A program made the translations under genes and the position numbers. A model generated the notes under the pieces. The model did not search any database. It had not been told where the DNA came from and saw only the letters and a list, made by a program, of their open reading frames with translations. From Paenibacillus ferrarius (GTDB lineage: Bacteria > Bacillota > Bacilli > Paenibacillales > NBRC-103111), in contig NZ_MBTG01000056.1 in the NCBI RefSeq assembly GCF_002027705.1, positions 186,001 through 250,000 of the forward strand: a DNA stretch of 64,000 bases, in the 5' to 3' direction. This document shows positions 577 through 17,015 of this stretch, one piece after another (the first letter of the stretch is position 1; the number at the start of each line of letters is the position of its first letter).

Positions 577-655
577 TGTGATATTCCTCCTTTTTCTTGG
601 ATATGATATAATAAAGGAACTAAAGGAAGGCTCCAACCTTCCCTTAGTTGCTTGT

Positions 656-850
656 CTAGCGTTTGCGGTGCTTTCTACTTCTTGGCGGGAGTGAAGCATC
701 GCTTTTTACTATGTCCTGCTTTCTTTCGTCTGCTTCGCGTTCATTTCGTCTATCTCGCCTATTTGCGAAGTAGAGGAAGATGGAAACCGATGCCCCGATT
801 AAAGCAGGTGCTAGGGCTTTAATGACGTCTAACCATATCATTGGCGTCAT
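656..850 (-). CDS. Small single-span membrane protein with highly charged tail
   Basis: This 64-residue protein has one hydrophobic segment (about residues 9-28) followed by a strongly charged Arg/Glu/Asp/Lys tail. The SD-like AGAAGGG touches the first ATG (850); the second in-frame ATG at 841 has better spacing, so 61 residues is likely. It is the first gene after a near-consensus leftward promoter at 888-916 flanked by TAAAAATAA boxes. A short pair of small proteins with a similar layout occurs on the minus strand near the right end (52890-53269). Function unknown; possibly lysogenic conversion or holin-related. Confidence 0.55.
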   Translation of the reverse strand: MTPMIWLDVIKALAPALIGASVSIFLYFANRRDRRNEREADERKQDIVKSDASLPPRSRKHRKR

Positions 851-887
851 TCCCTTCTATGTATTTGTGTTTCTTTGGTACTTCTTT

Positions 888-928
888 ATTATAAGTTATT
901 TTTAGTTTAAAGTCAAATGTTATTTTTA
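888..928 (-). promoter_or_regulatory. Leftward sigma-A-type promoter with two TAAAAATAA boxes
   Basis: On the minus strand TTGACT (916-911) and TATAAT (893-888) are separated by exactly 17 bases, a near-perfect vegetative promoter driving the 656-850 gene. TAAAAATAA occurs twice: at 928-920, with its first base 12 bases upstream of the -35, and at 904-896 inside the spacer. The upstream copy has the same geometry as in the promoters at 2238, 4292 and 46857. A second copy between -35 and -10 is where a repressor would block polymerase, so operator function is a reasonable inference. Confidence 0.7.
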
Positions 929-1873
929 TTTTATAGAATGAGGCTCGTAACGGCGTTTCAGGCGTATTATGTGCTAATGAAAGTGTAGGTGAGGTTATGT
1001 GGTGTAACGTTGTATTTAGGGCTTCCTGAGGCGTTAGGATGGATGATAGTGGGTTAGGGAAAGGTGAGTGAGTGAATAGTGGAATGGATCATGTTAGGTG
1101 AATAGTATAGTGAGAATGGTAGATGGCATGTTGATAGGTGATAGTTATTGGATGGATTATGGTGATAGGTAATGGCTATAACGTAGAGAGTGGATAATTA
1201 TATAGTTAACATGTAAGTTAATGTAATATGAGTGTGATGATATATTAACATCAAACTAATACCAATAGTTTATCAATTGAACTAAGTCGTTATTGTTATT
1301 AACAGAATGGGAACTGGGGCGTTTAGTGTCCCTATGCTAGTATTATACATATCCCTTTATACATAAACCTTTTTAATCGTCACATCCTTGTTAAACAAGC
1401 TATTATCAATGAGTATTCATGTAAGTTACTTACTATTATATATCCTGATAATATATAGATATCGGGATCTATCCTTTATATATAAGCCTTTTCATAGGTG
1501 GGGGGATGGTTCACACCTTACAAAAAGTAAGTGAGACAGTGAGGGGCTGCAACTGATTATCCCACAGCATCTTCCCAATTTTCCACTTTTACTTTCATCT
1601 TCAGCTCCTCAATTTAACTCCTAATCCATGCCCATATTCCATAAATTTTAATCATGTTCCCACTCATAAAACTATTATATTTTTCTTTATTTATATACTA
1701 TTTTCCATACCTACTTTTTCGGCTAAAATTTATTTTTTCAACATATTCCCCTACATTATCCCCCTCAAACCTTGATACATAAGGCTTTCTATGATTAAAC
1801 TCTCCTTTATCCCTAACATACGACACTATAAAACTCATTTTTTTGTTTTACATAGGCATAAAATGGATCTATT
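929..1873. other. Gene-free kilobase with G/C strand switch; candidate replication origin or control region
   Basis: No credible gene is present in 945 bases. Counted by hand, bases 1021-1200 hold about 65 G and 8 C on the top strand, while 1561-1740 hold about 6 G and 47 C, so strand composition inverts within the region. The left part carries loose repeats of the type GGTGATAG and TTAGGTGAATAG. The centre (about 1435-1490) is very AT-rich and contains the hairpin ATAGAT-N6-ATCTAT. The right part has CTTAC-AAAAA-GTAAG near 1525. Leftward genes lie on one side and rightward replication genes on the other. Origin function is inference. Confidence 0.4.
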
Positions 1874-2209
1874 GTGGCTATCATTAATTATACGGACATA
1901 CAAACTATATTAAATTGTCCGATAGAAAGAGAGGGTCATCATATGTTCATTAAATTATCCCAAAAGCACAAAGTAGGTAGAACCTTCGTTATCGTGTCGT
2001 TAAACTCATCCGATTTAGTAGATATAGGTTACGTTGCTAAGCTCCAGAAAGAGATGGAGAAGTACTTCGGCTTTCCAGTTTACTTCTACAACGTCGAGAA
2101 TAAACAGTGTCTTGGTGAGTCAGAAGATGTAATAAGCTGGATTCAAAGTAACGTAGAAACAGTAAGTTGGGAACACTGGGCAATCAAGGAGGAAGCAGCC
2201 GTAGTATAG
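1874..2209 (+). CDS. Hypothetical phage protein, about 88-111 residues
   Basis: The frame opens at a GTG (1874) with only a weak ribosome site. An in-frame ATG at 1943 is preceded by GAGAGGG at good spacing, so the real product is probably the 88-residue version. It is a soluble mixed alpha/beta protein rich in aromatic residues near its C-terminus, with no motif I recognise. It is the first rightward gene after the gene-free kilobase, and its stop codon lies in the loop of a terminator hairpin. Function unknown. Confidence 0.55.
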   Translation: MAIINYTDIQTILNCPIEREGHHMFIKLSQKHKVGRTFVIVSLNSSDLVDIGYVAKLQKEMEKYFGFPVYFYNVENKQCLGESEDVISWIQSNVETVSWEHWAIKEEAAVV

Positions 2210-2220
2210 GCTGTTTTTTC
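2194..2220 (+). terminator. Rho-independent terminator after the 1874-2209 gene
   Basis: AGCAGCC (2194-2200) pairs with GGCTGTT (2209-2215), followed by a T-run. The stop codon of the upstream gene is in the loop, so the hairpin ends that transcript and isolates the promoter at 2238-2277. Confidence 0.65.
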
Positions 2221-2237
2221 TTTTCTTTATTATAAAC

Positions 2238-2277
2238 TAAAAATAATATTTACATAATAAATTATATGTGTTACATT
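2238..2277 (+). promoter_or_regulatory. Box-linked promoter of the primase-like gene
   Basis: TAAAAATAA at 2238-2246 is followed by TTTACA (2249-2254), a 17-base spacer and TACATT (2272-2277), preceded by TGT as an extended -10. The same arrangement recurs at 4292-4332 and 46857-46897. Transcription should begin near 2283, so the GTG at 2268 that opens the long frame lies inside the promoter and is not a start codon. Confidence 0.65.
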
Positions 2278-2324
2278 TTTATTGGAGGGAGGAAATTGGA
2301 AGAATTTATAACTACATAAGGGAG

Positions 2325-4280
2325 ATGATTCGCTGTTTGAAATTATTATTAGATACATATCCGTTTAGCAAGAAGCCAACAGGAAGTGAAATACCTGTGC
2401 TATCCAATAGAATTAGCAAATATCCAGTAGATATTACGGCTGCAGAACTTGCACAAGAAATAGTTAAAGGGAAGACATTCGTTCCAGTAACGCTAACTGA
2501 AGTTGGAGAAAAAAAGAGAGCTCAATTAAATTGGAAGTCGCAAGAAATAATTTGTTTAGATTTTGACAATGAAAAGAGTATTCCTGATCCTGATAATCCC
2601 AAAAAGAAAATCAAAGTTAAAGATATCAAGATGACATTAGCGGCCGCGTTAGAGGAGTTTAAGGATACTGCAATGTTCATTTACACATCATTCAGCCACA
2701 AACCAGATCATCCAAAGTTTCGTGTTGTATTTGCATTAGAAAAAGTCTGTTATTCATCTAACGATATCATATCAACATACAATTATTTTGAATCGAAGTA
2801 TCCTTACATAGATACAAATTGCTCTGAGGTTGCACGAATGTTCTATGGTGGCAAAGAGCTTTTCGAATTAAATTACTCTAATCGAATACCCATTGTTATA
2901 GCCTCGTCCATCAATAAGAGTAAAAATAATGGTGGTGGTTTATGTGACTTTGATAGCATTAGGGTATTATCTAATGAATATAATAGTCACCAAAACCCCC
3001 CATCTAAAGTTATCATCAATAGTAATACTCAGCTCAATATCCAACAAGACAATATGCTGGAGTACATTAAGTCTAAGAATATAGATAGGCTACATACAAT
3101 ACTTAATCCTAATGCTGTAGACTTCTATACATATAGTGAAACAGTCGAACATATCAAAAGCCAAGACTTAAGACTATTCTTAGGAATCAATGCCCCAACC
3201 TTCAGATGTATATTTCATGACGACAATTCACCAAGCGCAAGCATATTCAAGAGCGATAAATCAAATGACATTCTATACTGCTGCAACAGTTCCAATTGTA
3301 AGTTTGGTACTGGAAATGTAATCAAATGTGTTGAGTGGCTGCTAAAATGCAATAGACTTCAAGCTTTACGTTTTCTCAGACAGGTCTATAAAATTGGATT
3401 TCATCAAACAGAATGGCAAAAGGAACAAATCGAGTTTTTAGATGAGAATATTCGCTATGTTCAAAGTGAAGAATTTTCGTATTCACAACCAATTCAATAC
3501 AAGTTGATCAAAAACTACATAGGTGATTTAGTAAATTTTTGGAGCATTGCAAAGGACTACCTCCCACCTGAACACTATTCTTCAGAGCAGTCAGAAGTAT
3601 TGTTTTATGCAAGCATAGGTCATTTTAACAAAGTCTACGGTAAGAACAAAAGTGTAAAGAGACTCGGAGATAGGTTATCGCTATTCACATATTTGAAGTA
3701 CATTAAAAAATTAAAGGAATCTGAGATCCCAGATAGAATGTTGAAGGAATCAAAAAAATACATAATCAAGAATAAAGCATTAAACAATCAGGACTCATAT
3801 AATTTAATTCAACATTATGTTGCATACCCACTTACTCAAGATGTATTAGTTGATGCTGAAGACAAAGCTCTAGAATATAGAAATAGTGAGTTCACAATGA
3901 AAGCATGGTCGTGGGAGACAATAGCAAGAACACTTAATGAAGAAGAAGCAAATCGAGTGTTTCCTCAGATGGGGGGAAAGAAAACTAAGATTAGAGAAAA
4001 AAGCCATAAGATGACTACAGAAATTGAGATAGTTGGTATGAAATTGATCAGTGAGAATGGCTGGACGACAGAGAAAGAGATTTTGGAGAATGTTGACTTG
4101 ACTATTATTACATCCAAGACAGGCAAAGAGAGACAGATGAAGAAGATTATCTTTGAGTTTATGCAAAAGTATGGGTTAATCAAATTTCAACTTAACAAGA
4201 AGCTATCCGCGGAACTAGGCATTCCACCAACAGTTACAGAAAATGGAGTAGGCTATCCAAGAATTATCTATAAAAAATGA
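2325..4280 (+). CDS. Primase-like protein with CHC2-type zinc finger
   Basis: The frame is open from 2268, but that part overlaps the promoter; ATG 2325 or TTG 2337 are the plausible starts. The N-terminal third has an acidic LDFDNE motif and an FRVVFAL strand pattern typical of the primase-polymerase (RepB/AEP-like) fold. Near DNA 3205-3320 is a zinc-finger segment: Cys in FRCIFHDD, then two Cys pairs ending in SNCKFG, resembling the CHC2 finger of DnaG-like primases. The C-terminal third is unassigned. A role in starting phage DNA replication is inferred. A seven-codon reading frame with a much stronger ribosome site (2296-2319) lies just before the start and may couple translation. Confidence 0.6.
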   Translation: MIRCLKLLLDTYPFSKKPTGSEIPVLSNRISKYPVDITAAELAQEIVKGKTFVPVTLTEVGEKKRAQLNWKSQEIICLDFDNEKSIPDPDNPKKKIKVKDIKMTLAAALEEFKDTAMFIYTSFSHKPDHPKFRVVFALEKVCYSSNDIISTYNYFESKYPYIDTNCSEVARMFYGGKELFELNYSNRIPIVIASSINKSKNNGGGLCDFDSIRVLSNEYNSHQNPPSKVIINSNTQLNIQQDNMLEYIKSKNIDRLHTILNPNAVDFYTYSETVEHIKSQDLRLFLGINAPTFRCIFHDDNSPSASIFKSDKSNDILYCCNSSNCKFGTGNVIKCVEWLLKCNRLQALRFLRQVYKIGFHQTEWQKEQIEFLDENIRYVQSEEFSYSQPIQYKLIKNYIGDLVNFWSIAKDYLPPEHYSSEQSEVLFYASIGHFNKVYGKNKSVKRLGDRLSLFTYLKYIKKLKESEIPDRMLKESKKYIIKNKALNNQDSYNLIQHYVAYPLTQDVLVDAEDKALEYRNSEFTMKAWSWETIARTLNEEEANRVFPQMGGKKTKIREKSHKMTTEIEIVGMKLISENGWTTEKEILENVDLTIITSKTGKERQMKKIIFEFMQKYGLIKFQLNKKLSAELGIPPTVTENGVGYPRIIYKK

Positions 4281-4412: not shown

Positions 4413-5588
4413 ATGGGAATGATTCAAATTGAAAAACTAAATCCACATCCAAAGAATGAATACTATTTTACTGATGTTGTCGGTGATAAGTATGAAGAAA
4501 TCAAACGCAGCATCAATACATATGGTATACGCGATCCTCTAAAGGTTACGACAGCTTATACAATTATCAGTGGTCACCAACGATATAGGATTGCACGAGA
4601 TTTAGGATTGTCAGAAGTCCCAGTTGAGATTGTTGATGTCGATGAGTGGAAAGCCGAGTACATGTTAATTGCTGAGAATACTGAACGCCGCGGAGAAGCC
4701 GAAGGAGATCCAATAAAAAAGGCTAGAATTATTCAGTTTTTAAAAGATTATTGGAACATAAAAAAGGGAAGTCGTAGTGACCTTGGACCAAAAGTCCGAA
4801 GTTCAAAAGAAATGGCAGATTATATTGGGGAAGACGAACGAACGACACGCAGACTTGCCAAATTAAATGAACTTATTCCACAACTTCAATCACTTGTATC
4901 GTCTGGAAAGTTTAGTGTGAGAGCAGCAGAGCAACTAGCATATCTAACAGAAGAAGAGCAAGAAGTTTTATTTGAAGAGAGAGGAGAAGCAATTAGTGAA
5001 ATGACACTTGACGAATCCAAAAAGCTTAGAAAGGAAAATGAACAATTAAAAAAACAACTTCTAAATAGTAAGGATACGGAAACTAAAATAGCGAATGCAC
5101 TTGAAGATAAAAGAACGCTAGAATTGGAGTTAATCAATTTAAAAAATGAAAAGACTAAGACTGAGTTTATCACTAACAATATAATGGTGGATAAGCCTGA
5201 AACTCTTGATAAAATTACTAGATTAGAAGAGCAAATTAAGGAAAAGGAGGGGTATGTTGAAAAGTATCGTAAATCACTAAAAGAATTAAATGAGAAAAAT
5301 GCAATCATTAATAAGTTCATGGGTGAAAACACTAATTTTCAACTCGTATCAAAAGCAAGCGAAGTAACTTTAAAAATGCTTGATTTTACCAAAGAAATGA
5401 GTAGATATGATTATCTTTCTGAGGTTTTTAATGAAATTCCCGATGCTACAAGAAAAGAATATGTGAGAAGTATTTATGGTGTATATAAATGGGCTAGGAA
5501 TATTCTTCAAGAAGTGAAACATGATGATGTAATTGGAGTTAATAAAAATATTATTGATGTTAAAAAAACAAACGTGGAGGTTATTTAA
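4413..5588 (+). CDS. ParB/Spo0J-like protein with coiled-coil tail
   Basis: 391 residues. Residues 1 to about 95 form a ParB N-terminal domain: N-terminal LNPHP, then SGHQRYRIA and the ENTERR arginine patch used for CTP/nuclease-type chemistry in the family. A helix-turn-helix (roughly 125-185, with EDERTTRRLAKL) follows, then a long charged coiled coil. ParB-type proteins bind DNA and act in partition or transcription; no ParA ATPase is visible nearby, so a regulatory or DNA-organising role is as likely as partition. It has a box-linked promoter at 4292 and a second box at 4377. The next gene begins three bases after its stop. Confidence 0.75.
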   Translation: MGMIQIEKLNPHPKNEYYFTDVVGDKYEEIKRSINTYGIRDPLKVTTAYTIISGHQRYRIARDLGLSEVPVEIVDVDEWKAEYMLIAENTERRGEAEGDPIKKARIIQFLKDYWNIKKGSRSDLGPKVRSSKEMADYIGEDERTTRRLAKLNELIPQLQSLVSSGKFSVRAAEQLAYLTEEEQEVLFEERGEAISEMTLDESKKLRKENEQLKKQLLNSKDTETKIANALEDKRTLELELINLKNEKTKTEFITNNIMVDKPETLDKITRLEEQIKEKEGYVEKYRKSLKELNEKNAIINKFMGENTNFQLVSKASEVTLKMLDFTKEMSRYDYLSEVFNEIPDATRKEYVRSIYGVYKWARNILQEVKHDDVIGVNKNIIDVKKTNVEVI

Positions 5589-5591
5589 TAT

Positions 5592-6200
5592 ATGACAAAT
5601 TCATTAGAAGTAAAAGTTAATAAAATGGAAAGAATTCTTGAAAAACTAGCTTTGGGGCAAAATAATACTTTCGAAATTATTAGTGAACTAACGAACACTG
5701 TCACTGATGAAATTAGAGAGCAAGTCAAACAAGTTGTAACAGCAAACTCGTTAGAATTAAATCAAACTGTTCAGACTGTTAAAACTGAAATCAAAACAGA
5801 TATTGAACGCATTGATGATAAAATTAGCAAAACACAGGAGATGGCTATCAGCACAGCTAGAGTTTCACAAACATCATCTAATTATGTCGATCAAGGTGAA
5901 TTTGGAGACATGTTTAGAGTATCAATTAGTTCCAATAGAATCGGTAGATTGTTTAAAGCTGTGGGGTTAGCAAAAGCAAGCAAAAGAAAAACAACACCAT
6001 ATGATAAGTTTAAACCTAAATATGCTAAGACAGTTATTTTTGAGGAAAAACAATCTTATCAATGGCACTATAAAAATTGCATGGATTATATCGAAGATTG
6101 GTTAGAGAAAAAAGGACTTCTTGAAGAATTCTATACAATTGAAGTACGGGATGATATGGAGGTATACATTGATCGACTGTATAATCAGCTTGACTCATAA
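5592..6200 (+). CDS. Coiled-coil phage protein of unknown function
   Basis: 202 residues, starting three bases after the ParB-like gene with a GGAGG ribosome site inside that gene's end, so the two are co-translated. Residues about 5-90 are helical and charged, predicted coiled coil. The C-terminal half is basic and aromatic (from about residue 115) and may be a small DNA- or protein-binding domain. No family recognised. Tight coupling suggests that it works with the ParB-like protein. Confidence 0.6.
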   Translation: MTNSLEVKVNKMERILEKLALGQNNTFEIISELTNTVTDEIREQVKQVVTANSLELNQTVQTVKTEIKTDIERIDDKISKTQEMAISTARVSQTSSNYVDQGEFGDMFRVSISSNRIGRLFKAVGLAKASKRKTTPYDKFKPKYAKTVIFEEKQSYQWHYKNCMDYIEDWLEKKGLLEEFYTIEVRDDMEVYIDRLYNQLDS

Positions 6201-6230
6201 TAACAATAAATAAATATAAAATAAAAATAA
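6190..6230 (+). promoter_or_regulatory. Promoter-like element immediately before a possibly leaderless gene
   Basis: TTGACT at 6190-6195 overlaps the end of the upstream gene; TATAAA at 6215-6220 could serve as -10 with a long 19-base spacer. AAATAAAAATAA (6219-6230) overlaps the expected start of transcription, three bases before the ATG at 6233. No ribosome site lies between. Confidence 0.4.
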
Positions 6231-6232
6231 TA

Positions 6233-6508
6233 ATGAAATACATAACGATAATAGGCGGCCAGAAAAAGTGGTATAAGGCAGTAACAGACGATTTAAATCT
6301 TGAGTTAATACATGATGGAGGAGAGCATCCAAAACGCATATTGGGCAAACTCAAGCGTTCTAAGGCTATATTCTTGGTTCTTACAGCTACTTCACACAAT
6401 GCGACTTATATGTGTGTGGAGTACGCCAAGGAGCTTGGTATTCCTTGCTTTAAATTAAAGGGATGTAAGTCACAATTGAGAGAGTTGATACTACAACTGG
6501 ATCATTAG
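6233..6508 (+). CDS. DUF2325 family small protein
   Basis: 91 residues with the DUF2325 pattern: N-terminal strand ending IIGGQ, a central HDGGEHP histidine motif, a hydrophobic LVLTATSHNATY stretch and a C-terminal GIPCFKLKG strand. The family is a short Rossmann-like domain of unknown biochemical role. There is no Shine-Dalgarno in the 20 bases before the ATG, which are nearly pure A/T, so a leaderless transcript or coupling to the gene ending at 6200 is possible. It precedes the RNA polymerase gene by 25 bases and is probably in the same operon. Confidence 0.65.
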   Translation: MKYITIIGGQKKWYKAVTDDLNLELIHDGGEHPKRILGKLKRSKAIFLVLTATSHNATYMCVEYAKELGIPCFKLKGCKSQLRELILQLDH

Positions 6509-6532
6509 TAAACGAATGGAGGAATTCTGAAT

Positions 6533-9280
6533 TTGAAGCAAGGTAAATCTTATACAATTTATAAAATCAACTCTGAAAGCATTAAGAAGACTAAGTGGAA
6601 CTTTGTCACAGACTTTGCTAAGTTGCGGAAGAGTGAGGAGGTGGTTGGACTATCAGAAAGCACACTTATTAGAATTCTTCGTCGTATTGAAGGTATCGAT
6701 GAACTAGAATTCAGAGATAATCTTACCACATTAGAAGCAGAAATTACTGATCTTAAAAGTTATGAGTCATCAAAAGCAAATTTAATAAAGCTAAAAGAGT
6801 TGAATCAGAAATTAAGAGACATGTTACATATTAAGGATTTAGTCATGATCACCATGAATAAGCCAGAGCACTTTGATAGATTGAATAGTAAAAAAGGCTT
6901 TACCATTGATGGAGTTAAATATAAGCGTCTATTTGGTACTGCAGGCGGGGTAAAGAATAAGACTTTATTCTATGCTTCAGATAATATATATGGTGAGTTA
7001 GTGAGAAGAATTGAAAATGGAAGAGACATGGAAATAAAAATACCCGCGGCTAAACTGGAAGCATATAAATCACTAGTTGCGTCATCTTCATTATCTGTGG
7101 GAAGTCTAGATCCAAAGAAAATTCTAGTGGTAAACGATTGTAAAACAATATTTAAAGAGGATGTTATCCGAATCTATGATGAAAAAGGAAAGAATTATCC
7201 AACTGTTGAGGAAGTAGAAGGATATACAATAGAAAACAATGCTTCTGATGGATTTGGACTAATATCTCCAAAATTAGCAGAGGAATGGGGTATCAATAGT
7301 GGCGGCTGCATGCGGAATGCATTTCTGAAAGGTATGATTTTCCCATTTGACTTCCACGAGTTTGCAAAAACTGAGGCAGAGGAAAAATACGAAGTATTTG
7401 ATGTATGGAGTAAAACTGCCAAAGACATCAGGGATGTTCAATTGATTTTGACCACATCTATGTTGAAGTTGTGGAAAGCCTATAAAAGTATTGAGGAATA
7501 CATAGGATGCTGTAATAAGAATGGTTTTACTTTCAGTATTACAAAAGTGACACCGAAATCACTAGAAAATCAGAGAGACTTGAATTATCAGTTCATTCAA
7601 TCTTTAGAGCTTTCAGATGCCGATATTGAAGAATTAGTAAGGCCAACAGTGGATACTATTAATGATATTATGAGTAGTGATTATCGAAAGACCATATTGT
7701 ACCTTAAAGGTGAAGATTTAAAAGAAAAAGGTTATAAAATAAAAGGAAATTTCGACTATACTAATGCACTGATGATTGAACCAAAATTAATTAATGACCC
7801 ATATGTTAAGAATAAGGTTAAAGATTTGATTAGTAAAAGAATAGTTGATGCAATGAAAGGAGACTTAGTTGTCCGAGGGAACTTTGCTATTGCATCTGGT
7901 GATCCGTATGCGCTGTGCCAAACAATATTCAATATGAAAGTAACTGGCCTTTTGAAAGCAGGAGAGCATTATTCAAGATATTGGAGTGATAATGGTGTAA
8001 ATAGGGTTGCTTGCTTTAGAGCTCCGATGTCTGTGGCAAACAATATTCGAATCTTGAATTTTAAAGATACAGATAAAATGAAGCTTTGGTACAAACACAT
8101 GAAAACAGTCAATATATTCAATGCTTTTGATACGACTCCTCACGCGCAAAACGGTGAAGATTATGATTCAGATTCCAATCTTACAACTAATAACTCAGTT
8201 TTATTACGAGTAATTAAGGAATTGAAACCTATTATATGTGAACAAGGTACGGCAAAGCCAATTGTCCCCAAAGAAGATGACTTGCAAATTGCTAACAAGT
8301 TATCATTCGGTGATGATATTGGCAAGGTAACAAACAGGGGAACTTCTCTCTACAATGTCTTGGCTAAATTCGAAAAGGGAACTGCTGAATATAATGAGAT
8401 ACAATATAGAATCAAGTGTGTCCAACATTATCAGCAAAATGCTATCGACAAAACAAAAGGAGCAGAGTGGAGCCCATTCCCCAAAGAATGGTATAGCGCG
8501 AATGCAAATCAGATTATTGAGTACGATACAGAAGAAGATATTCAAAGAAAGCTACTTAATATATCGATCCTAGCCGATAAACAGCCATACTTCTTTATTT
8601 ATAGATACCCTGAAACAAGCAAAAAATATAAGGAATACGTAAGAAAGCATGAAGATAACTGTATTTTTAACTATGGGATTAAACTACAGGATATGCTGAC
8701 CAAGCAAGACAGGGATAAGGCAGAAGAAAATTTTGTATTTAATTATTATAGCTATATCCCAGTATCCTTAGCACCTTCAACAATGAATCGAATTTGTTGG
8801 AAAGTAGAGGAAGAATTCAAAGGTATTAAAAAAGGCAGCAATAAAGAAAAATTTGATTATACAGTAATGAAATCAGGCATTCAATACAATCAGAAACATT
8901 ATAAACAATTGCAGAAGCTATATAATAAACACAATGCACTTATGCAATCTTATAAGAAAATAAGTAAACAGGATGATATCGATAAAGAAGAGTCAAATGA
9001 ACAAAGTCGTCAATTTGTTGATGAATTTAGAAATAGCTCTTTAGAAATATGTAGCAATATGATCGAACTAACAGATATGGTGTTAGATATTTGCTATTCA
9101 AAGTTAAATGAGAGTAAGTCTAAGCAGTTTGCATGGGATATTTGTGGAGAACAGATTATTCGTAACCTATGTCAAAGTAATGATTTCGTAATTAATATTC
9201 CAGTTCTAGATGAGAATGGAGATATTAATTTTAATGGCAAAAGATTTAGAATGACAAAATCTTTTATTAGGAGTGTGTAG
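6533..9280 (+). CDS. YonO-like single-subunit, two-barrel RNA polymerase
   Basis: 915 residues, TTG start with GGAGG at good spacing. Around residues 539-549 is the metal-binding signature NGEDYDSDSN (Asp543, Asp545, Asp547), the equivalent of the DxDGD loop that holds catalytic magnesium in double-psi beta-barrel RNA polymerases; the usual Gly is Ser here. A GTAGGVKNKT segment near residue 137 fits the first-barrel region. Length and setting, with an HU-like gene shortly downstream and the head genes after that, match SPbeta YonO, a monomeric DNA-dependent RNA polymerase that transcribes late phage genes. It would transcribe part of this prophage independently of the host enzyme. The assignment rests on motif, size and neighbourhood. 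Confidence 0.7.
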   Translation: MKQGKSYTIYKINSESIKKTKWNFVTDFAKLRKSEEVVGLSESTLIRILRRIEGIDELEFRDNLTTLEAEITDLKSYESSKANLIKLKELNQKLRDMLHIKDLVMITMNKPEHFDRLNSKKGFTIDGVKYKRLFGTAGGVKNKTLFYASDNIYGELVRRIENGRDMEIKIPAAKLEAYKSLVASSSLSVGSLDPKKILVVNDCKTIFKEDVIRIYDEKGKNYPTVEEVEGYTIENNASDGFGLISPKLAEEWGINSGGCMRNAFLKGMIFPFDFHEFAKTEAEEKYEVFDVWSKTAKDIRDVQLILTTSMLKLWKAYKSIEEYIGCCNKNGFTFSITKVTPKSLENQRDLNYQFIQSLELSDADIEELVRPTVDTINDIMSSDYRKTILYLKGEDLKEKGYKIKGNFDYTNALMIEPKLINDPYVKNKVKDLISKRIVDAMKGDLVVRGNFAIASGDPYALCQTIFNMKVTGLLKAGEHYSRYWSDNGVNRVACFRAPMSVANNIRILNFKDTDKMKLWYKHMKTVNIFNAFDTTPHAQNGEDYDSDSNLTTNNSVLLRVIKELKPIICEQGTAKPIVPKEDDLQIANKLSFGDDIGKVTNRGTSLYNVLAKFEKGTAEYNEIQYRIKCVQHYQQNAIDKTKGAEWSPFPKEWYSANANQIIEYDTEEDIQRKLLNISILADKQPYFFIYRYPETSKKYKEYVRKHEDNCIFNYGIKLQDMLTKQDRDKAEENFVFNYYSYIPVSLAPSTMNRICWKVEEEFKGIKKGSNKEKFDYTVMKSGIQYNQKHYKQLQKLYNKHNALMQSYKKISKQDDIDKEESNEQSRQFVDEFRNSSLEICSNMIELTDMVLDICYSKLNESKSKQFAWDICGEQIIRNLCQSNDFVINIPVLDENGDINFNGKRFRMTKSFIRSV

Positions 9281-10120
9281 ATGGAAAAAATACTAAATGA
9301 GAAGAAGTATCTGCATAAAATTATTTTCGAAAACTATATTGATCCTAATTTATTTAACCCTATAAGACTTCTTGTTAAGTATTATGTAGTTAACGGATTG
9401 GATAAAAGAAAAGTATATAACTGTGTTTTAAGATATGCGTGTAATATTTATAAAAAAGTCGATAAAATAAAAAATGATAAGGTTAATAAGAGATATGAAG
9501 AAGAAGAGCTTGAGGATATTGTCAAAAAAAATGTGAACTACTACTTTCAGAAGAAGAAGAAACTGATTAAAGAGAACAAAGAGTTAAGATTAACAGATAT
9601 TGATCAAATACATATAACTAAGAATGAACTCTATAAGATTTCGATGCTTAGTAATTTTGAATTAGAGAGACTTGCTTATGTAATGTTGGTTCTGAGCAAG
9701 ATTGGAAGAGCCAAGTCTGATAACTGTCAAGATAATGTGAACTATGGGGTATTCTGCAATCGAGAAGTATTTGAAGAGGCATTTCTTTCATATTCTTATA
9801 AAAATAAGCTGCTAATCAATGAATTGAAACAAACTGGTCATGTATCTCCAAATCAAGAAAATGGCAAATCCATTTTCGTCAAAGTTTTGTTTGCTGATAA
9901 AGATGAAGATTCAGAAGTAGCAATAACCATAACTGATTTTAGGAATTTTGCTTATACATATGACCAATTTAGAGGTAGCAAGGTTATAACCAAATGCAAG
10001 ATATGTGGAATTACCTTTCAGAAAAAATCAAAGGGGCATAAATATTGTGAGGATTGTCAAAAAGAAAAGCAACTAGAATTCAAAAGAAAAAGTATTAATA
10101 AGAAAAGAAAAGTTATGTAG
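9281..10120 (+). CDS. Hypothetical protein with C-terminal zinc ribbon, coupled to the polymerase gene
   Basis: 279 residues; its ATG directly follows the polymerase stop codon, so the two are translated together. The body is lysine-rich and helical. At the C-terminus two Cys pairs (KCKICGITF, about 12 residues, KYCEDCQ) form a likely zinc ribbon, followed by a very basic tail. This could be a DNA- or RNA-binding partner of the phage RNA polymerase, for example a promoter-recognition or elongation factor. That role is inferred from coupling and the zinc ribbon only; I do not recognise the family. Confidence 0.6.
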   Translation: MEKILNEKKYLHKIIFENYIDPNLFNPIRLLVKYYVVNGLDKRKVYNCVLRYACNIYKKVDKIKNDKVNKRYEEEELEDIVKKNVNYYFQKKKKLIKENKELRLTDIDQIHITKNELYKISMLSNFELERLAYVMLVLSKIGRAKSDNCQDNVNYGVFCNREVFEEAFLSYSYKNKLLINELKQTGHVSPNQENGKSIFVKVLFADKDEDSEVAITITDFRNFAYTYDQFRGSKVITKCKICGITFQKKSKGHKYCEDCQKEKQLEFKRKSINKKRKVM

Positions 10121-10199
10121 AGTTTATTGGATCACTAAAAAACTCTTTTAAATAAAGGCTATTTCAGCCAATTTTAAAAAGTGCTTATGTGGGTAATAA

Positions 10200-10210
10200 A
10201 GTAAAAATAA
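10200..10210 (+). promoter_or_regulatory. AAGTAAAAATAA-type box before the HU-like gene
   Basis: AGTAAAAATAA lies 44 bases before the HU-like start codon. TATTATACAT between box and ribosome site could be a -10-like element. It is the same string as at 4377, 20036, 42069, 52018 and 54266. Confidence 0.45.
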
Positions 10211-10243
10211 AAAATAATATTATACATTGGGAGATAATAATAT

Positions 10244-10573
10244 ATGAATAAGGCAGAACTCATAAATAAAGCAGCAGAAATATCAGGAGTATCTAAAAAA
10301 GAAACAGAGAAAGTCGCCAACGCTTTGTTTGACGTAATGTTTGGCACACTAGAAACAGGCGAAGAAGTCCAGATTATTAATTTTGGCACTTTCTTTAGGC
10401 GCATTCGGAAAGCTAGGGAAAATGGAATTAATCCATTACTTGCTGCTGAATATAAGAGCCAAGGATATAGCGAAGAAGAATATAAGAAAATGGCTAGTGT
10501 AAATGTTCCTGAAATGGGTGCTCCAGCGTTTAGAGGCTCGAACAAACTAAAGGCCGCATTGAAACACATTTAG
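10244..10573 (+). CDS. HU/IHF-family DNA-binding protein (YonN-like)
   Basis: 109 residues, starting MNKAELINKAAE as HU proteins do, with the helical dimerisation region (residues 1-40), the beta-arm region (about 41-75) and GSNKLKAALK near the C-terminus. It carries an insertion of about 18 residues in the arm region relative to the 90-residue host HU. HU-family proteins bend and compact DNA. SPbeta also has an HU homologue (YonN) next to its polymerase gene yonO, which supports both calls. It has its own box at 10200 and a GGGAG ribosome site. Confidence 0.8.
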   Translation: MNKAELINKAAEISGVSKKETEKVANALFDVMFGTLETGEEVQIINFGTFFRRIRKARENGINPLLAAEYKSQGYSEEEYKKMASVNVPEMGAPAFRGSNKLKAALKHI

Positions 10574-10651
10574 ATAATACATAACCAATTAGACCATTCA
10601 TTAATTTGGATGGTCTTTTCATATTTAATCAAAAGGGAGATTGATGAAATA

Positions 10652-10822
10652 ATGGCTATCGAAAAACTGAAAGAATTAAACAAAATTAAAGAGGATTTGT
10701 ATGCACTCTACCCTAACGCAGTAAAGATTCAGTTTACTTGCGAAGGGGACAAAGTGACGCTTGTTCCAACAGAGAAGTATGAGATTTCACCAGAAGCTTT
10801 AGTCTCAGAGGAAGAGGAATAA
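10652..10822 (+). CDS. Small acidic hypothetical protein
   Basis: 56 residues from the ATG at 10652, which follows AAAGGGAGA; the frame extends upstream to 10610 without a ribosome site. The N-terminal half is helical and charged, the C-terminus very acidic. It ends three bases before the ATG of the metallophosphoesterase gene and is probably its translational partner. Function unknown. Confidence 0.55.
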   Translation: MAIEKLKELNKIKEDLYALYPNAVKIQFTCEGDKVTLVPTEKYEISPEALVSEEEE

Positions 10823-10825
10823 TTG

Positions 10826-12109
10826 ATGAAAGATACTCTTCTTGCTTTAGGGATTAAAAAACGCAACAAGCAGATCAACATGAGTTGGCAGGAAATTGCT
10901 GACCAAAGTGATGGATTGTTTACTTCAGGTGAAAATTTCAGGTGTTGGGTTAAAGAGCAGCTTCGTAAAAAGGGTGAACTTAAATCCAAGGGTGTTGTAG
11001 TAGAGAAGGCAACATTGCCTAACTACAAAGAGACTGTCGAGATAAATAAGGATGGTTCACACACAAGCGATAAACTGCTTACAATGTCCGCTGAGCAGTG
11101 CAAGGACGTAGAATACCTACTTAAAGCTCATGGTTATGACACAAAAGCGTGGGAACTTGTCTCCGCGAGAAACAACATTTGGAATGTGTACAGTAAGGTT
11201 GACGGTGTTCAAACTCTTTATTCAAGTAAGATTTCAGTGAAACCACGAAAAGAAGTATTGAGTTTAGAATACATTCGTGAAGTATTTGATGAAATGAGTT
11301 CCAACTATAAGCTTCCTACGTTTAATCCAGTTAGATACAATGCAGATGGAAAAATGCTGGAAGTAAATATTTCAGATCTTCACTTAGGCAAGATTGCCGA
11401 TTTGAGCACGTCAAACGATACATATAATCATGAGATTGCGAGAAATAGATTCTTCCACGTTATTAATGATGTAATCACACGTACTTCACACTATAAATTC
11501 GAAAAGATATTATTCATCTATTCTCAAGACTTCTTCCATCATGAAGGATTATCCACTTCCACAACAAGTGGAACAAAAATGGAAACAGATTTGAGATGGA
11601 ACGAACTGTTTAAAATGGGTGTCCAAATGCTTGTTGAAGCTATTGATATCCTATCACAAGTTGCGCCAGTTGAGACAATCTATATTGAAAGTAATCATGA
11701 CCGTCAGATTAGCTACTATGCAATTGAGTATTTATATGCTTGGTTCAGGAACAATCCAAATGTAACAGTTGATAATAGTCCTTTGTCTAGGAAATATATC
11801 GAGTTTGGTAAAAATCTTATTGGATTCGCTCATGGACACAATGAGAAAAAGAGACTTGCTTTTCTTATGCCAACTGAAGCTAAAGAGGCATGGAGTCGTA
11901 CAGAATATCGAGAGTTTCACTTAGGACATTTACATAGTGAGCAATCGGTCACAGAGCAGAATGGAATCATTGTACGGCACATTAGTAGCGTAACAGGAAC
12001 TGATACTTGGCATCATTCGCAGGGCTTCGTTGGAAGTCAAAAGAAAGCCCAATCATTTGTCTATGACAGAGATTTGGGTTTATTGGATGTTTTACATATC
12101 AATGTTTAA
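10826..12109 (+). CDS. Calcineurin-like metallophosphoesterase with N-terminal helix-turn-helix
   Basis: 427 residues from ATG 10826 (a TTG one codon earlier is possible). The phosphoesterase motifs appear in order: SDLHLGK (first metal pair), then HNYK-type spacing, ESNHDRQ (the GNHD motif with Ser for Gly), FAHGHNE and GHLHSE. Residues 1-60 look like a DNA-binding wHTH, with SWQEIAD. Such SbcD- or Mre11-like enzymes cut DNA or dephosphorylate small substrates using Mn/Fe. A role in phage DNA processing is plausible. It sits between replication and packaging genes, as in several SPbeta-type phages. Confidence 0.75.
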   Translation: MKDTLLALGIKKRNKQINMSWQEIADQSDGLFTSGENFRCWVKEQLRKKGELKSKGVVVEKATLPNYKETVEINKDGSHTSDKLLTMSAEQCKDVEYLLKAHGYDTKAWELVSARNNIWNVYSKVDGVQTLYSSKISVKPRKEVLSLEYIREVFDEMSSNYKLPTFNPVRYNADGKMLEVNISDLHLGKIADLSTSNDTYNHEIARNRFFHVINDVITRTSHYKFEKILFIYSQDFFHHEGLSTSTTSGTKMETDLRWNELFKMGVQMLVEAIDILSQVAPVETIYIESNHDRQISYYAIEYLYAWFRNNPNVTVDNSPLSRKYIEFGKNLIGFAHGHNEKKRLAFLMPTEAKEAWSRTEYREFHLGHLHSEQSVTEQNGIIVRHISSVTGTDTWHHSQGFVGSQKKAQSFVYDRDLGLLDVLHINV

Positions 12110-12151
12110 TCAAATGGAAGGAATCTTTTATTAGAATGTTAGGTACATAAA

Positions 12152-12322
12152 ATGGGCAACGGGCACAAATGGACTATTAAAGATAACGCTGTAGAACTTT
12201 TAGAGAATAAATATGATGTTGATAATAAGTTGAAGTTTCAGGAGATTATGGAACTACTTATAAAAGAAGACTTTTATGAGAACAATGGAGCATCCTTAAA
12301 CCGATACGAAGGCGGTACTTAG
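12152..12322 (+). CDS. Short hypothetical protein or gene remnant
   Basis: A 56-residue frame lies in the gap between the metallophosphoesterase and the structural gene at 12428. The N-terminus (MGNGHKWTIKD) and central Leu/Lys/Glu helix look like real protein, but there is no good ribosome site and the end looks abrupt, so it may be the front of a deleted gene. The following 100 bases contain nothing recognisable. Confidence 0.35.
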   Translation: MGNGHKWTIKDNAVELLENKYDVDNKLKFQEIMELLIKEDFYENNGASLNRYEGGT

Positions 12323-12427
12323 TTCAAATGAATGCACAATTTCATAGGTTCGAAAGAATCATTTTTAGTTCAGAGATTGTAAAAGCGTTTCTTTACTAAG
12401 CAGGTAAAAGTAGAAAGGAGAGTTATA

Positions 12428-12763
12428 TTGAATCAATATACAACATTAACAGGAAAAATTGCTTTTCACGACCAAATTACTTCTACAGCAAGTACTACGT
12501 ATAATGTAGGCAACTATAGAACATTAATAATCGATATATTTGGAACAAGTTCGAGCAGAACTATCAACTTTAAATCAATCGGAGTAAGTGGTACTCCATA
12601 TCCACTTTCAGGAGTGAGATTATCTGATTTAACCGTAGCCTCTTCAACCTCTTCAACAGGCGAAACTTGGTCATTCGATGTGACTGGTCTTGATTCTGTG
12701 GGAATTGATGTATCTGCTATCAGCGGAGGAGATGTTTCAGTGAAAGGAAGGTTTGTTGCTTAA
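12428..12763 (+). CDS. Putative beta-rich phage structural or receptor-binding protein
   Basis: 111 residues from a TTG after GAAAGGAG. Composition is rich in Ser, Thr, Gly and Val with alternating hydrophobic residues, as in beta-sandwich tail or decoration proteins. Its stop overlaps the ATG of the deacetylase gene by one base, so the two are coupled. General style resembles the 109-residue protein at 38492. Likely a virion surface component that accompanies the deacetylase; no family recognised. Confidence 0.5.
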   Translation: MNQYTTLTGKIAFHDQITSTASTTYNVGNYRTLIIDIFGTSSSRTINFKSIGVSGTPYPLSGVRLSDLTVASSTSSTGETWSFDVTGLDSVGIDVSAISGGDVSVKGRFVA

Positions 12764-13998
12764 TGGCAGATTTAGTCGCAAGAGGTGTAGCAAATCAAGC
12801 AGTTCAGATAGTTTCTAACCTTCAACCTAAACCAAACCAAGATGACAGATCAAACAAGGATGGGGTAATCCTACTAACCAGCGGGATTGCAGCATCTTGG
12901 ACTAAGCCATATGGAGATGCCATAGGTATCGATTCTTTGCATACATACCTCTCGCCTACAGGCATGTATATTCAATCCACAAATGGTGTAGATACGGCTT
13001 TGAGACTTGCTGCATTGAGGGGGTTTAGACTCGATAAATACAAGAGTTTGAGGGTTTATGTGTACATCGAAAATGTAGCTAATCTTTTTGATCTTCAATT
13101 TTATTTTTCGGCAAACGGTGGATTTAGCATTCAGTCTTATTACACACTTATTGCTGATGATGCCCGTTTTGTCGAAGGGTGGAATGAAATCTTGATTGAT
13201 ACAACTAAGTTGATTGCCCAAGGTGGTGATGTACTTTCAACCAAACGAGTATCTTTCCAAATGCGTGCTAAGTCCATAGCAGGTGCAGGAAAAACAGTGA
13301 AGGTTACTTTTGATTCTATTGTTGCTGATTCTAATAGTAAGCCTAAAATTATATTCACTTTTGATGATGCATGGGACACACAGTACACGAAAGCATTCCC
13401 ACTTCTATTAGAGCGTGGATTTGTGGGTAACATTGGGGTTATACCGACAAAGGTTGGAACCACAGGTTATTGTACATTAGCACAGTTGCAAGAAATGTAC
13501 AGCTATGGATGGGATATGTTTAACCATACCTATACTCACCCAGACCTTTCAACGCTTTCTGCTTCTGAAGTAACAAACGAGATTGTCCAATGTAAGGATT
13601 GGCTAAATAGACAGGGGTTCACACGAGCATCTGACTTTCTAGCGTACCCATATGGAGGCCACAATCAGACCACAGTCGATACGATAAAGTCAGAAATTAG
13701 AGCTGCTAGATGTCTAACCGAGGGTATACAAGGTGAAAAATTAATTAATCCGCATAGAATTATGACTCGAAACATGATAAATGGTCGAGCGACTGCGAAC
13801 TTCACTGGCTTTGTCGATGAATTAATCAATACAGGTGGTACATTGGTCTTTACTAACCATAAAATTGAGCCAACAGGAACAGACCCTCTAATCTACGTTG
13901 ATGCCAGTTTTACTACAGTTTTAGATCATATCTATAGTAAGCGAAGTCAAGTTGAAGTTGTCACAGTGTCACAGTGGCTAGGCACAAGACGTGCTTAA
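12763..13998 (+). CDS. NodB-type polysaccharide deacetylase, phage-borne
   Basis: 411 residues. Residues about 40-190 form a beta-sandwich, carbohydrate-binding-like domain. A NodB domain follows: FTFDDAWD at about 197-203 (catalytic base and metal Asp), HTYTH at about 254-258 (metal His pair), and AYPYGGHN. These enzymes remove acetyl groups from peptidoglycan, chitin-like or surface polysaccharides. No signal peptide is present, so the protein probably acts as part of the virion, helping adsorption. It is unusual that it lies before the terminase genes rather than in the tail module. Translationally coupled to the 12428 gene. Confidence 0.75.
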   Translation: MADLVARGVANQAVQIVSNLQPKPNQDDRSNKDGVILLTSGIAASWTKPYGDAIGIDSLHTYLSPTGMYIQSTNGVDTALRLAALRGFRLDKYKSLRVYVYIENVANLFDLQFYFSANGGFSIQSYYTLIADDARFVEGWNEILIDTTKLIAQGGDVLSTKRVSFQMRAKSIAGAGKTVKVTFDSIVADSNSKPKIIFTFDDAWDTQYTKAFPLLLERGFVGNIGVIPTKVGTTGYCTLAQLQEMYSYGWDMFNHTYTHPDLSTLSASEVTNEIVQCKDWLNRQGFTRASDFLAYPYGGHNQTTVDTIKSEIRAARCLTEGIQGEKLINPHRIMTRNMINGRATANFTGFVDELINTGGTLVFTNHKIEPTGTDPLIYVDASFTTVLDHIYSKRSQVEVVTVSQWLGTRRA

Positions 13999-14060
13999 TA
14001 TGGGGATCGGTAGGAAAAGAAGAAAATATAAGTGTAGTTTATAGGAAAATGCAAAGACAG

Positions 14061-14097
14061 GAAGCCACTTAGAAATAAGTTAGGGCTTCTTATTTTT
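14061..14097 (+). terminator. Rho-independent terminator after the deacetylase gene
   Basis: GAAGCC (14061-14066) pairs with GGCTTC (14084-14089), with an inner CTTA/TAAG pairing, followed by TTATTTTT. It ends the early/replication transcript before the packaging genes. Confidence 0.75.
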
Positions 14098-14120
14098 GCA
14101 CAAATTTTATATAAAGACTC

Positions 14121-14262
14121 ACGCTTTAAGCACATCTCAACGGGTGAATTTAAAGCGTAAGTTTTCGTGTGTGTACGCAATCTAGGATTAATGTTCCTCT
14201 CCCTAACATTTAATCTTGCTTTCACACACGGAATTTTCATGGGAGTAAGGGGAGGGTTGAAA
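14121..14262 (+). ncRNA. Folded leader or packaging-site element before the small terminase gene
   Basis: Three helices can be traced. ACGCTTTAA (14121-14129) pairs with TTAAAGCGT (14150-14158). CGTGTGTG (14166-14173) pairs with CACACACG (14223-14230). Inside this, GCAA pairs with TTGC and GATTAATGTT (14186-14195) pairs with AACATTTAATC (14205-14215), closing a CCTCTCCCT loop. That loop is anti-Shine-Dalgarno-like and can pair with GGGAG (14241-14245) or the AAGGGGAGGG ribosome site of the next gene. Either translational control or a cos/pac site is possible; position directly before the terminase fits both. Confidence 0.4.
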
Positions 14263-14263
14263 G

Positions 14264-15283
14264 ATGACTGAAACAAAGCTAAAAGGCAGACCAAGGAAAG
14301 ATACTGATGTTTCACAACAAAAAGAAGTGGGACATGGTGGAAACATAGGAAAAAAGAAGAATTGTATTACATGTGTAAAGAGTAAAGATTTAAGTCAATT
14401 CTATTTGTCTTATAGCTCAAATCATGGTGATAAACGGACTCCTATTTGCAAACTCTGTGTTCGGAATGATGTTGATTTCACCGACTTAAAAAATGTAAGA
14501 GATAGGCTACTTTCAATAGATAAGCCATTTTTAATAGATAGGTGGAACATTGCTATTGAAGAACATAGAAAGACAAATAAACATCCAATTGGATGCTATG
14601 TAAAAAATATAATACTTTCAGACGCAACAAAGTACTTAACCTATAAAGATAGTGTTTTTGAGTCGTCTCACATGGAAACTATAGAAATATCTACTTCGAT
14701 TGAAGATAATGAGATCTTAGAGATTAAGAAATTAAATTACGATTTGAAGCAACTTAAAAGTAAGTATGGATATGGATATCCAGATGATGAGTATTATCTT
14801 TTCGAGGATAAATATCAACAATTAAAAACAAGTTTCCAATTACTCACTACTATGCATGAAGAGTATTTCAGAGAATTCTGTGTTAATAAAGTCAAAGAAA
14901 CTTTAGCTAAAGCAAAGGGACTCTTTAAAGAAGCCAAAGAATGGGCAGCAATGGTAAAGGATGTTGCTGAAGCTGGAAAGCTTAAGCCTTCTCAAATGAG
15001 CAAGGCCGATTTGTCGGGTGGTTTAGATACATTTGGGCAACTTGCTAGAATGGTCGAAGAAAATCATGAAATTATGCAGCTTCTCCCCCGCTTTACTGAG
15101 CAACCAAAAGATAAGGTCGACGTGACTTTATGGTGTTATATCAACTATGTTCGTGACTTAAAAGGACTGCCAGAGTGTGAGTATAAAGAAATTTATGCCT
15201 TTTACGACATGAAAAAGCAAGATTATGAAAGCCAAATGAGTGATGCCAGATATGGCGATGAAGAAGATGATGTAGGTGACTAG
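14264..15283 (+). CDS. Putative terminase small subunit
   Basis: 339 residues, beginning with a basic GRPRKD (AT-hook-like) stretch, then a Cys finger (CITC near residue 37, CKLC near 62). The rest is mostly helical with an acidic C-terminus ending in GDEEDDVGD. Its position directly before and overlapping the large terminase gene identifies it as the DNA-recognising small subunit or an equivalent; sequence alone would not. It carries the AAGGGGAGGG ribosome site discussed under the folded leader. Confidence 0.6.
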   Translation: MTETKLKGRPRKDTDVSQQKEVGHGGNIGKKKNCITCVKSKDLSQFYLSYSSNHGDKRTPICKLCVRNDVDFTDLKNVRDRLLSIDKPFLIDRWNIAIEEHRKTNKHPIGCYVKNIILSDATKYLTYKDSVFESSHMETIEISTSIEDNEILEIKKLNYDLKQLKSKYGYGYPDDEYYLFEDKYQQLKTSFQLLTTMHEEYFREFCVNKVKETLAKAKGLFKEAKEWAAMVKDVAEAGKLKPSQMSKADLSGGLDTFGQLARMVEENHEIMQLLPRFTEQPKDKVDVTLWCYINYVRDLKGLPECEYKEIYAFYDMKKQDYESQMSDARYGDEEDDVGD

Positions 15284-17015
15284 CCATAGTAATTTTCAAA
15301 GTGATAATTTCAAGCACACAAGAAAAAGCTCTCGTGTTGGAGATAATCCTGAATTCAATTCAAATGTAAAATTAGATGAGTCTAAAGGAAGTTCGTTTGA
15401 TCGTAATTTAGAAAAATGGATTCAGTTTATCCAATGGAGCAAATGGTTTCCCGATCTATTCTATGATCTTATTTCTCCAGAAAAAGGTGGAATGCGATTA
15501 GATTTAGATCAAAGAGTCTTTCTTCGCTCTATGAGCCGTTTTGTAAGCACCTATGGAGTATTTCCGAGGGGTTTTGGGAAGACAATGCTCGAATTAATGA
15601 GCATATATCATACCTGCATACATTTTCCCGATATAACTATGGCTATGAGTGCTCAGACTCGTGAGAATGCAAGTTCTATTAGCGAAGAGAAACATAATGA
15701 AATTATTAAATGGTTCCCGTTAATGAATAATGAAATTGTGAAATCAAGTTTCAGCAAAGATCAAGTTGAAGTTATATTTACATCTGGTGCAATCTATAGT
15801 GTCTTGGCAAATTCTCAACATTCAAAGGGACAAAGAAGACGCAGACTTAATGTTGAGGAATCAGCACTCCTAAATAATGCATTATTCAAAGATGCACTGG
15901 AACCTGTCGTAAATGTTCCTAGAAGGACGATAGGTAAACTATCAACCATTAATCCATATGAGTTAAACGGCATGATTAACTACTTAACTACTAGTGGCTA
16001 TCGCGGCAGTGATGAGTTTATTCGTTTGATAAACATGATTGACGATATGGCAGAACTGAAGGGGAAAATGGTTTTAGGTGCGAGTTGGGAATTACCTTGT
16101 CACTATGGACGTGGAGAAACTAGAAGTCAAATTCTAGCCAAGAGGGACGATCCCACTACAAGCTCGGTTTCCTTCAACCAAAACTATGGGTCGAAATGGT
16201 GCGGTGCGTCTGATGGAGCACTAGTTAGTATCAACAAACTATTAGAATTAAGAACAGTTCCTACCGCGAGTATTCAACCTCGTAAAAATCGAGAGTATTT
16301 TATTGGTGCGGATATTGCACGTTCACAATCAAACAATAATAACAAATCGGCATTTGTGGTTATTGAAGTTGAACGGGCATCCAATGGAAAAATTAAAACA
16401 GCAACAGTTTGTAATATTTTTGTTCCTCCAAATGGAACTAATTTTAATGATCAAGCAATGTTTCTCAAACGGCTGGACAAACATTATGGTGGTAATGTAA
16501 CAGTAGTGGATGCTAATGGAATTGGTCAAGGTGTTGTTGAAGAACTAATGAAACAAACTATTGATCCTTTACAAAATGACCCTTATGAAAGTTGGGATAC
16601 AATCAATACTGATGAAATCCCTCAAGATGATGTGTCCCCTAAGAAGATATTTAGTTTGAAGGCACAAGGAATTCAAACAGACATTGTAACTAATTTCATT
16701 GATTTTGTTGAAAGTGGTAGGCTGAAATTGCTTGTACCAAGTAAGTTGTTAGAGTCAAACGATAGAGTTAAAAGTAATAAAGATGATAATCAAATTAAAG
16801 CAGCTCACTTTCAAACAGATCAATTAATTGACCAAACTGCTAACTTAAAACTGGTTCAGAAACAAGGCGGGAAATTAAGCGTTGAGCAGGTAGCTAAAAA
16901 GACAGAAAAAGATATTTGGGCTGCTCTTGCTTATATTTTATACTACTTAAAACACTATGAGGATAACAAAAGAGAAGAAGAAGAAACCAATATTCTAGAT
17001 TATTTATGGGTATAA
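15276..17015 (+). CDS. Terminase large subunit
   Basis: 579 residues, GTG start overlapping the previous gene by eight bases. The ATPase half has the Walker A-like FPRGFGKT at about residues 94-101 and a Walker B/catalytic segment ending RRLNVEESALL. The nuclease half has IGADIARSQSNN followed by VVDANGIGQG, the RNase H-fold metal positions. The motor packages DNA into the procapsid and cuts concatemers, bound to the portal encoded next. The protein lacks a membrane or signal segment, as expected. Confidence 0.9.
   Translation: MTSHSNFQSDNFKHTRKSSRVGDNPEFNSNVKLDESKGSSFDRNLEKWIQFIQWSKWFPDLFYDLISPEKGGMRLDLDQRVFLRSMSRFVSTYGVFPRGFGKTMLELMSIYHTCIHFPDITMAMSAQTRENASSISEEKHNEIIKWFPLMNNEIVKSSFSKDQVEVIFTSGAIYSVLANSQHSKGQRRRRLNVEESALLNNALFKDALEPVVNVPRRTIGKLSTINPYELNGMINYLTTSGYRGSDEFIRLINMIDDMAELKGKMVLGASWELPCHYGRGETRSQILAKRDDPTTSSVSFNQNYGSKWCGASDGALVSINKLLELRTVPTASIQPRKNREYFIGADIARSQSNNNNKSAFVVIEVERASNGKIKTATVCNIFVPPNGTNFNDQAMFLKRLDKHYGGNVTVVDANGIGQGVVEELMKQTIDPLQNDPYESWDTINTDEIPQDDVSPKKIFSLKAQGIQTDIVTNFIDFVESGRLKLLVPSKLLESNDRVKSNKDDNQIKAAHFQTDQLIDQTANLKLVQKQGGKLSVEQVAKKTEKDIWAALAYILYYLKHYEDNKREEEETNILDYLWV

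Follow-up and report, generated by a model that had tools for sequence, protein, structure and literature searches.

A candidate DNA-packaging terminus marked by a G-to-C composition flip in SPbeta-like prophages

A 64,000-nucleotide stretch of the Paenibacillus ferrarius genome (contig NZ_MBTG01000056.1, positions 186,001–250,000; hereafter the window) forms part of an SPbeta-like prophage, with genes for a YonO-type polymerase and for primase-like, ParB-like, terminase and serine recombinase proteins. Near its start lies an element (929–1873) whose top strand switches abruptly from G-rich to C-rich around a conserved core. We consider this element likely to be a DNA-packaging terminus (a pac or terminal-repeat site) of the prophage; we do not take it for an RNA, and it is probably not, or not solely, a replication origin. 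An origin had been proposed in a preliminary description of the window, and we gave up that reading for packaging on account of the packaging literature and the ends of deposited phage records. The element stands as a conserved landmark, but its function is probably different from the one proposed, because deposited or mapped ends of relatives fall inside it.

Among the large temperate phages of Bacillus subtilis, SPbeta serves as the model. Passages of a 2021 review (PMC8270828) describe its replication as not investigated and its packaging mechanism as still to be elucidated. New here are the nucleotide-level site, its spread, its arms and the presence of the same core in non-skewed loci; titles and abstracts of the literature found, with full text from open-licence papers only, name neither core nor arms. 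The arms, one G-rich and the other its C-rich mirror image, seem to be a so far undescribed means of labelling viral genome ends. A candidate cut site at nucleotide level that crosses genera makes packaging, its mode (headful versus terminal repeat) and possible satellite piracy directly testable. The flip is a clue to genome ends in these prophages that needs no annotation, and the polarity of the ends poses a new question of how phage ends recombine.

Composition flip and conserved core

On the + strand of the window, a G-rich, C-poor arm (929–1240; 95 G and 12 C at 961–1240, binomial p = 3e-17) is joined by an AT-rich middle (1241–1499; GC 0.30 over the last 240 nt) to the core, which stands at the start of a C-rich, G-poor arm (1561–1860; 14 G and 79 C, p = 4e-12). 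Hand counts given earlier for two 180-nt segments, 65 G/8 C from 1021 and 6 G/47 C from 1561, are exact. When 280-nt windows with at least 56 G+C were ranked by skew, the most G-skewed and the most C-skewed of the 64 kb both fell at the element, which also carries the top G-to-C flip on 216 kb of the window's contig, C56 (delta 1.69, runner-up 1.05). The element is gene-free as described, with no open reading frame (ORF) of at least 60 aa. Flanking genes were said to diverge: this holds for the ORF on the right (1874–2209, +) and the nearest on the left (656–850 and 400–699, −), but not for mechanically called ORFs at 298–492 and 497–694, which lie on the + strand. The repeats described there amount to weak two-copy families (81–87%) that do not exceed chance, and the hairpins found no support, since neither strand of the region folds better than its shuffles (z +0.7 and +1.7). 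Long AT-rich inverted arms, 86–90% complementary, flank the element at 896–936 and 2226–2251. A 26-nt segment at 916–941 matches the contig of the genome's other prophage (G000:C1:83223) at 96%, perhaps as a shared operator or promoter.

Conservation in relatives, whose absence the preliminary description had named as one half of what would refute it, was found: flip and core both recur in related prophages, and several low-GC relatives share the flip around the conserved core. The delta reaches 1.75 in L004, 1.68 in L052, 1.38 in L070, 1.29 in L013 (the second prophage of the same genome) and 1.22 in L062. Among phages it is 1.53 in phi3T and, across the record junctions, 1.44 in BUCT082 and 2.0 in PMBT24; in SPbeta the top flip of the genome lies between yonP and yonR (1.14; next 0.94). 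The core, at the start of the C-rich arm, consists of a run of five to seven G, TA, TTTACATC, a variable spacer and CCCATAGCACTTCC, and its cut-side letters in relatives (CCCATAGC^ACTTCC) keep a fixed spacing from the G-run, with 22 cores aligning nearly gap-free. Searching IMG/VR with the core pattern returned 13 contigs, 12 of which have a flip of 0.98–1.70; the 13th stops 135 nt past the core, and two of the 13 (L092 and L098) duplicate loci already collected. Across the 30 tabulated elements, many of them closely related, every downstream arm has a C skew; of the 29 upstream arms with data, 27 have a G skew, with values near zero in SPbeta and L095 and negative in L089 and L015.

At the DNA level the SPbeta element aligns to 24 phage records, all from Bacillus, and in phi3T and BUCT082 the alignment is confined to the non-coding part. 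Window positions 600–2300 had no phage or plasmid match in a DNA-level search, and positions 900–1880, compared with 104 genomes of the family, matched themselves and one 26-nt segment only. Around polymerase homologues, 17 of 20 regions, each 20 kb long, lacked a flip of at least 0.8; these 17 have a GC of 0.41–0.49, and the result covers the regions rather than whole prophages. The three with such a flip have a GC of 0.32–0.35. In CB457P1 the RNA polymerase is present, yet the record junction shows no flip. The alternative pattern GGGGGNTANTTTAACATC was rejected as mostly chance, having matched seven contigs with a strong flip in one. Several relatives carry a second G-run half-site, in core orientation and close to where their C-rich arm ends on its outer side (L052 9401, L070 10931 in reversed coordinates, L004 7162, L013 10623, L099 5745, L094 1666 and L089 4355); the same pattern found no such copy in SPbeta.

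Deposited or mapped ends of relatives within the element

Deposited or mapped ends lie inside the element for Perkons, BUCT083, BUCT082, PMBT24 and SPbeta, all of them relatives whose ends are taken from annotation and literature. Psychrobacillus phage Perkons (MT325768) carries an annotated 264-bp direct terminal repeat that covers the middle and the core and ends, in core orientation, at CCCTAAGC|TCATC, 53 nt from where the G-run begins. The BUCT083 record boundary, CCCATAGC|ACTTCC, falls at core position 53, the same nucleotide as the Perkons repeat end. On the other side, the first letters of the linear BUCT082 record are |CTTCGATT, 198 nt ahead of the G-run, in a block that is identical in all eight aligned Bacillus elements. 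The Perkons repeat starts at |CTTACGCTATT, 211 nt before the G-run, and shares this second block with the BUCT082 start. Letters like this left block occur at −206 in L062 and −227 in L093, and a regular expression for it matches between −197 and −227 in 13 of 30 elements, ten of which are Bacillus relatives of SPbeta. The Perkons repeat is annotated simply as a terminal repeat, and the G-rich arm there is weak (68 G/34 C).

Two published assignments point to the same place. For Enterocloster phage PMBT24 (PMC11035940), a PhageTerm peak on the reverse strand only was called pac and the record start was set there; that start lies 251 nt before the G-run, inside the flip element with the strongest arms of all (delta 2.0). 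The SPbeta pac was placed by restriction mapping in 1982 between or around yonR and yonP, according to the passage of the review that deals with it (PMC8270828), and this is the intergenic region that holds the top flip and conserved core of SPbeta. The location given there is only rough, with no sequence similarity to the SPP1 pac, and the passage mentions neither a core nor a cut position nor arms. The annotations themselves diverge, Perkons as a short terminal repeat and PMBT24 as a headful pac.

The window's own core (predicted, + strand, 1500–1580) is degenerate, and so a packaging role for this copy is derived from relatives. It comprises a G-run at 1500–1505, ATGGTTCACACC and two candidate cut sites. 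One, GGGGCTGC^AACTGATT after 1550, is chosen by spacing, 45 nt past the G-run as in the second prophage (counted by hand); the other, CCCACAGC^ATCTTCC after 1568, is chosen by letters with a regular expression and lies about 16 nt too far. With a matrix built from 22 other elements (window excluded), the core scored best of 127,808 positions, at 8.9 bits against 2.2 for the next. By analogy with Perkons and BUCT082, a left cut would lie some 200–230 nt before the G-run, at roughly 1270–1300.

A terminase acting at this site would recognise the core on concatemers and cut 48 nt past the G-run, as in Perkons and BUCT083, or perhaps 45 nt past it in the present genome. In some phages a further cut about 250 nt upstream would produce short direct terminal repeats. 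The skewed arms would then make up the terminal few hundred bases of the linear genome, the G-rich arm of the window inside its right end and the C-rich arm inside its left end, so that each end would have a 3'-ended strand rich in G and poor in C. More speculatively, C-poor 3' strands might aid end pairing or recombination, both in circularisation after entry and in concatemer formation. Computed with RNA energies, the C-arm's 3' strand is less prone to fold than symmetrised versions in nine of ten elements (z above 2); the G-arm does so in just two of ten, and that of SPbeta folds more (z −3.5). The speculation that the arms are unstructured pairing zones is thus supported for the C-arm only.

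The element would share with an SPP1-type headful pac a conserved recognition and cleavage region that initiates packaging. SPP1 pac adjoins the small terminase gene, whereas 9–14 kb separate the element from the gene for the large subunit; the element also has skewed arms, and some records suggest two cuts about 250 nt apart. The terminal repeats of T7 and cos of lambda, genome ends that terminase cuts at a defined sequence, would be similar in this respect.

A number of observations weigh against a packaging terminus or its details. Packaging leaves the skewed arms unexplained, and in T7 and lambda, the only controls run, the best delta within 1.5 kb of the ends is 0.81 and 0.31 against 1.69 in the window. 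The terminase gene is distant (about 9 kb in SPbeta, 14 kb in the window), and the core also occurs in non-skewed loci beside serine recombinases. The two cut positions in the window are predictions in competition with each other. Its core is weak: a covariance model (R1) built without the window gave it an E value of 0.14, second in the first 12 kb, and missed it with filters on and E up to 1, while it found the other prophage's core, which had gone into the model, at 2.8e-12. The regular expression for the left-cut block found nothing in 16 of the 30 elements, the window among them, and in L015 it matched once, at −111. The record ends themselves allow other readings. BUCT083 is marked circular, and its boundary may be a chosen start; the Hybphi3Ts record ends inside the element at neither cut; and the sections of PMC8951557 on Perkons that we consulted say nothing on termini, nor did we find how the Perkons repeat or the BUCT ends had been assigned. 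The PMBT24 start does not match the left block precisely, and the authors called a headful pac (PMC11035940). The review also favours a headful pac, from unpublished read distributions of Goe11–13 (PMC8270828).

Replication, transcription and recombination as alternatives

Were the element the phage replication origin, its AT-rich middle would unwind and TTTACGATA-like repeats in the C-arm would serve as initiator sites, a role that may coexist with a packaging site. We think this unlikely. It draws on the SPbeta genes that diverge from the element and on the minimum of cumulative GC skew at about 63.5–64.3 kb, which abuts the element at 64.11–65.06 kb; on the window's contig that minimum is absent at the element, and the local skew runs opposite to that of a bidirectional origin, as the preliminary description had itself remarked. 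Neighbouring genes fit replication, with a primase-like gene near the element in the window, L004, L013, L015 and L094, and a RecD-like helicase gene in L004, L013, L052 and L099. Three plasmid records hold the element, and in the two whose neighbours were read (circular, 122 and 124.5 kb) a TubZ-like gene lies beside it. ATCGTA/TACGAT repeats are conserved in the Bacillus alignment, and most elements (9 of 16) share the 8-mer TATCGTAA, with 17 copies in all; an expectation-maximisation motif search scored above its four shuffles, yet its consensus was of low complexity only. Against an origin stands also the core, which coincides to the nucleotide with two record ends. The two plasmids (L114 2434–3830 and L115 2413–3821, both from Bacillus), with element, small gene and then TubZ-like gene, are apparent SPbeta-type phage-plasmids.

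The element might instead be a non-coding RNA or control region, such as a late promoter or a C-rich, G-poor loading sequence for Rho on outward transcripts; this we regard as extremely improbable. Transcripts running outward from the centre would indeed be C-rich and G-poor, and the yonP promoter region of SPbeta is bound by MrpR, whose operator is the 15-bp SPBRE motif (PMC10516654). A sigma-70-like match (11 of 12) faces leftward at 916–888, just outside the element, and the first 4.5 kb hold five terminator-like sites against 2.0 in shuffles; promoter-like sites there number 22 against 21.4 by chance. The unusual transcribed control region that had been suggested, taken as a structured RNA, found no support: Rfam gave no match for the window or ten loci, the whole region folds no better than shuffles, and RNAalifold on 21 aligned cores returned neither a pair nor a consensus structure. 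A promoter for YonO at the element was dropped because the YonO transcription start has been mapped upstream of yonK, as stated in a passage of PMC5467207. A gene-free region of 1.68 kb lies between yonK and yonN in SPbeta (L082 9153–10833).

It is also very unlikely, in our view, that the core is a res or att site of a serine recombinase, a reading that draws on non-flip loci with such a gene near the core. A profile of the core had matches in 59 of the 392 genomes searched in the order; an exact pattern used across the class matched one of 398 and overlooks genomes that the profile matched. Among the 20 best profile loci, nine have a flip of at least 0.98, five of which (L131, L133, L134, L143 and L144) carry core letters already in the model, the new ones being L132, L135, L137 and L138. 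The other 11 (L136, L139–L142 and L145–L150) have no such flip, and a serine recombinase or resolvase lies near the core in five of them (L136, L140, L145, L148 and L149); L155, which covers L141, has a partial serine recombinase gene near its core. Profile matches are often paired, about 90–230 nt apart. The SPbeta attachment sites, however, are annotated at the record ends, tens of kilobases from the element, whose flanking genes are yonP and yonR, and the annotation of the Perkons repeat marks a genome end rather than a crossover.

In the two loci profiled for GC, L155 (about 4500–16500) and L159 (about 5000–15500), the core sits in low-GC islands of some 10–12 kb. Island ORFs of at least 110 aa gave no terminase or capsid match in a scan of 11 of about 18, not all against both libraries, and one marginal match to a structural protein (8.5e-4). 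Such islands may be satellites that borrow the packaging site through an armless core; alternatively they hold a recombinase site or are decayed prophages. A wider picture, in which a widespread SPbeta-type terminus has telomere-like end polarity and arms kept unstructured for end pairing, and its armless core is borrowed by 10–12-kb satellite islands for packaging, is one that we hold as doubtful.

Prophage setting

Rightward of the element, all on the + strand, the window encodes several proteins of the prophage. The first is a primase-like protein of 670 aa (2268–4280), a label that is fair but indirect: the protein belongs to phrog_25531, a family of unknown function, and matches a primase family weakly (1e-4), while its homologue in L094 carries a Pfam DnaG zinc ribbon. 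The gene at 6533–9280 encodes a 915-aa homologue of the YonO-type single-chain RNA polymerase, a marker of SPbeta-like phages, recognised through tblastn to SPbeta yonO (25.8% identity over 45% of the query) and through fuller-length relatives. The large subunit of terminase, which would be the enzyme that cuts the core, is encoded at 15276–17015 (phrog_2, E = 1.3e-13; a Pfam search with it gave no match). Further along, a large serine recombinase of 549 aa (54563–56212; Pfam Resolvase/Recombinase) is presumably the prophage's integrase, close to its right end. Two proteins of the window's prophage are also encoded, at 100% identity, on a 98.9-kb IMG/VR contig. The window's own contig carries another YonO-type polymerase, 44% identical, some 48 kb upstream (G000:C56:144835–147546).
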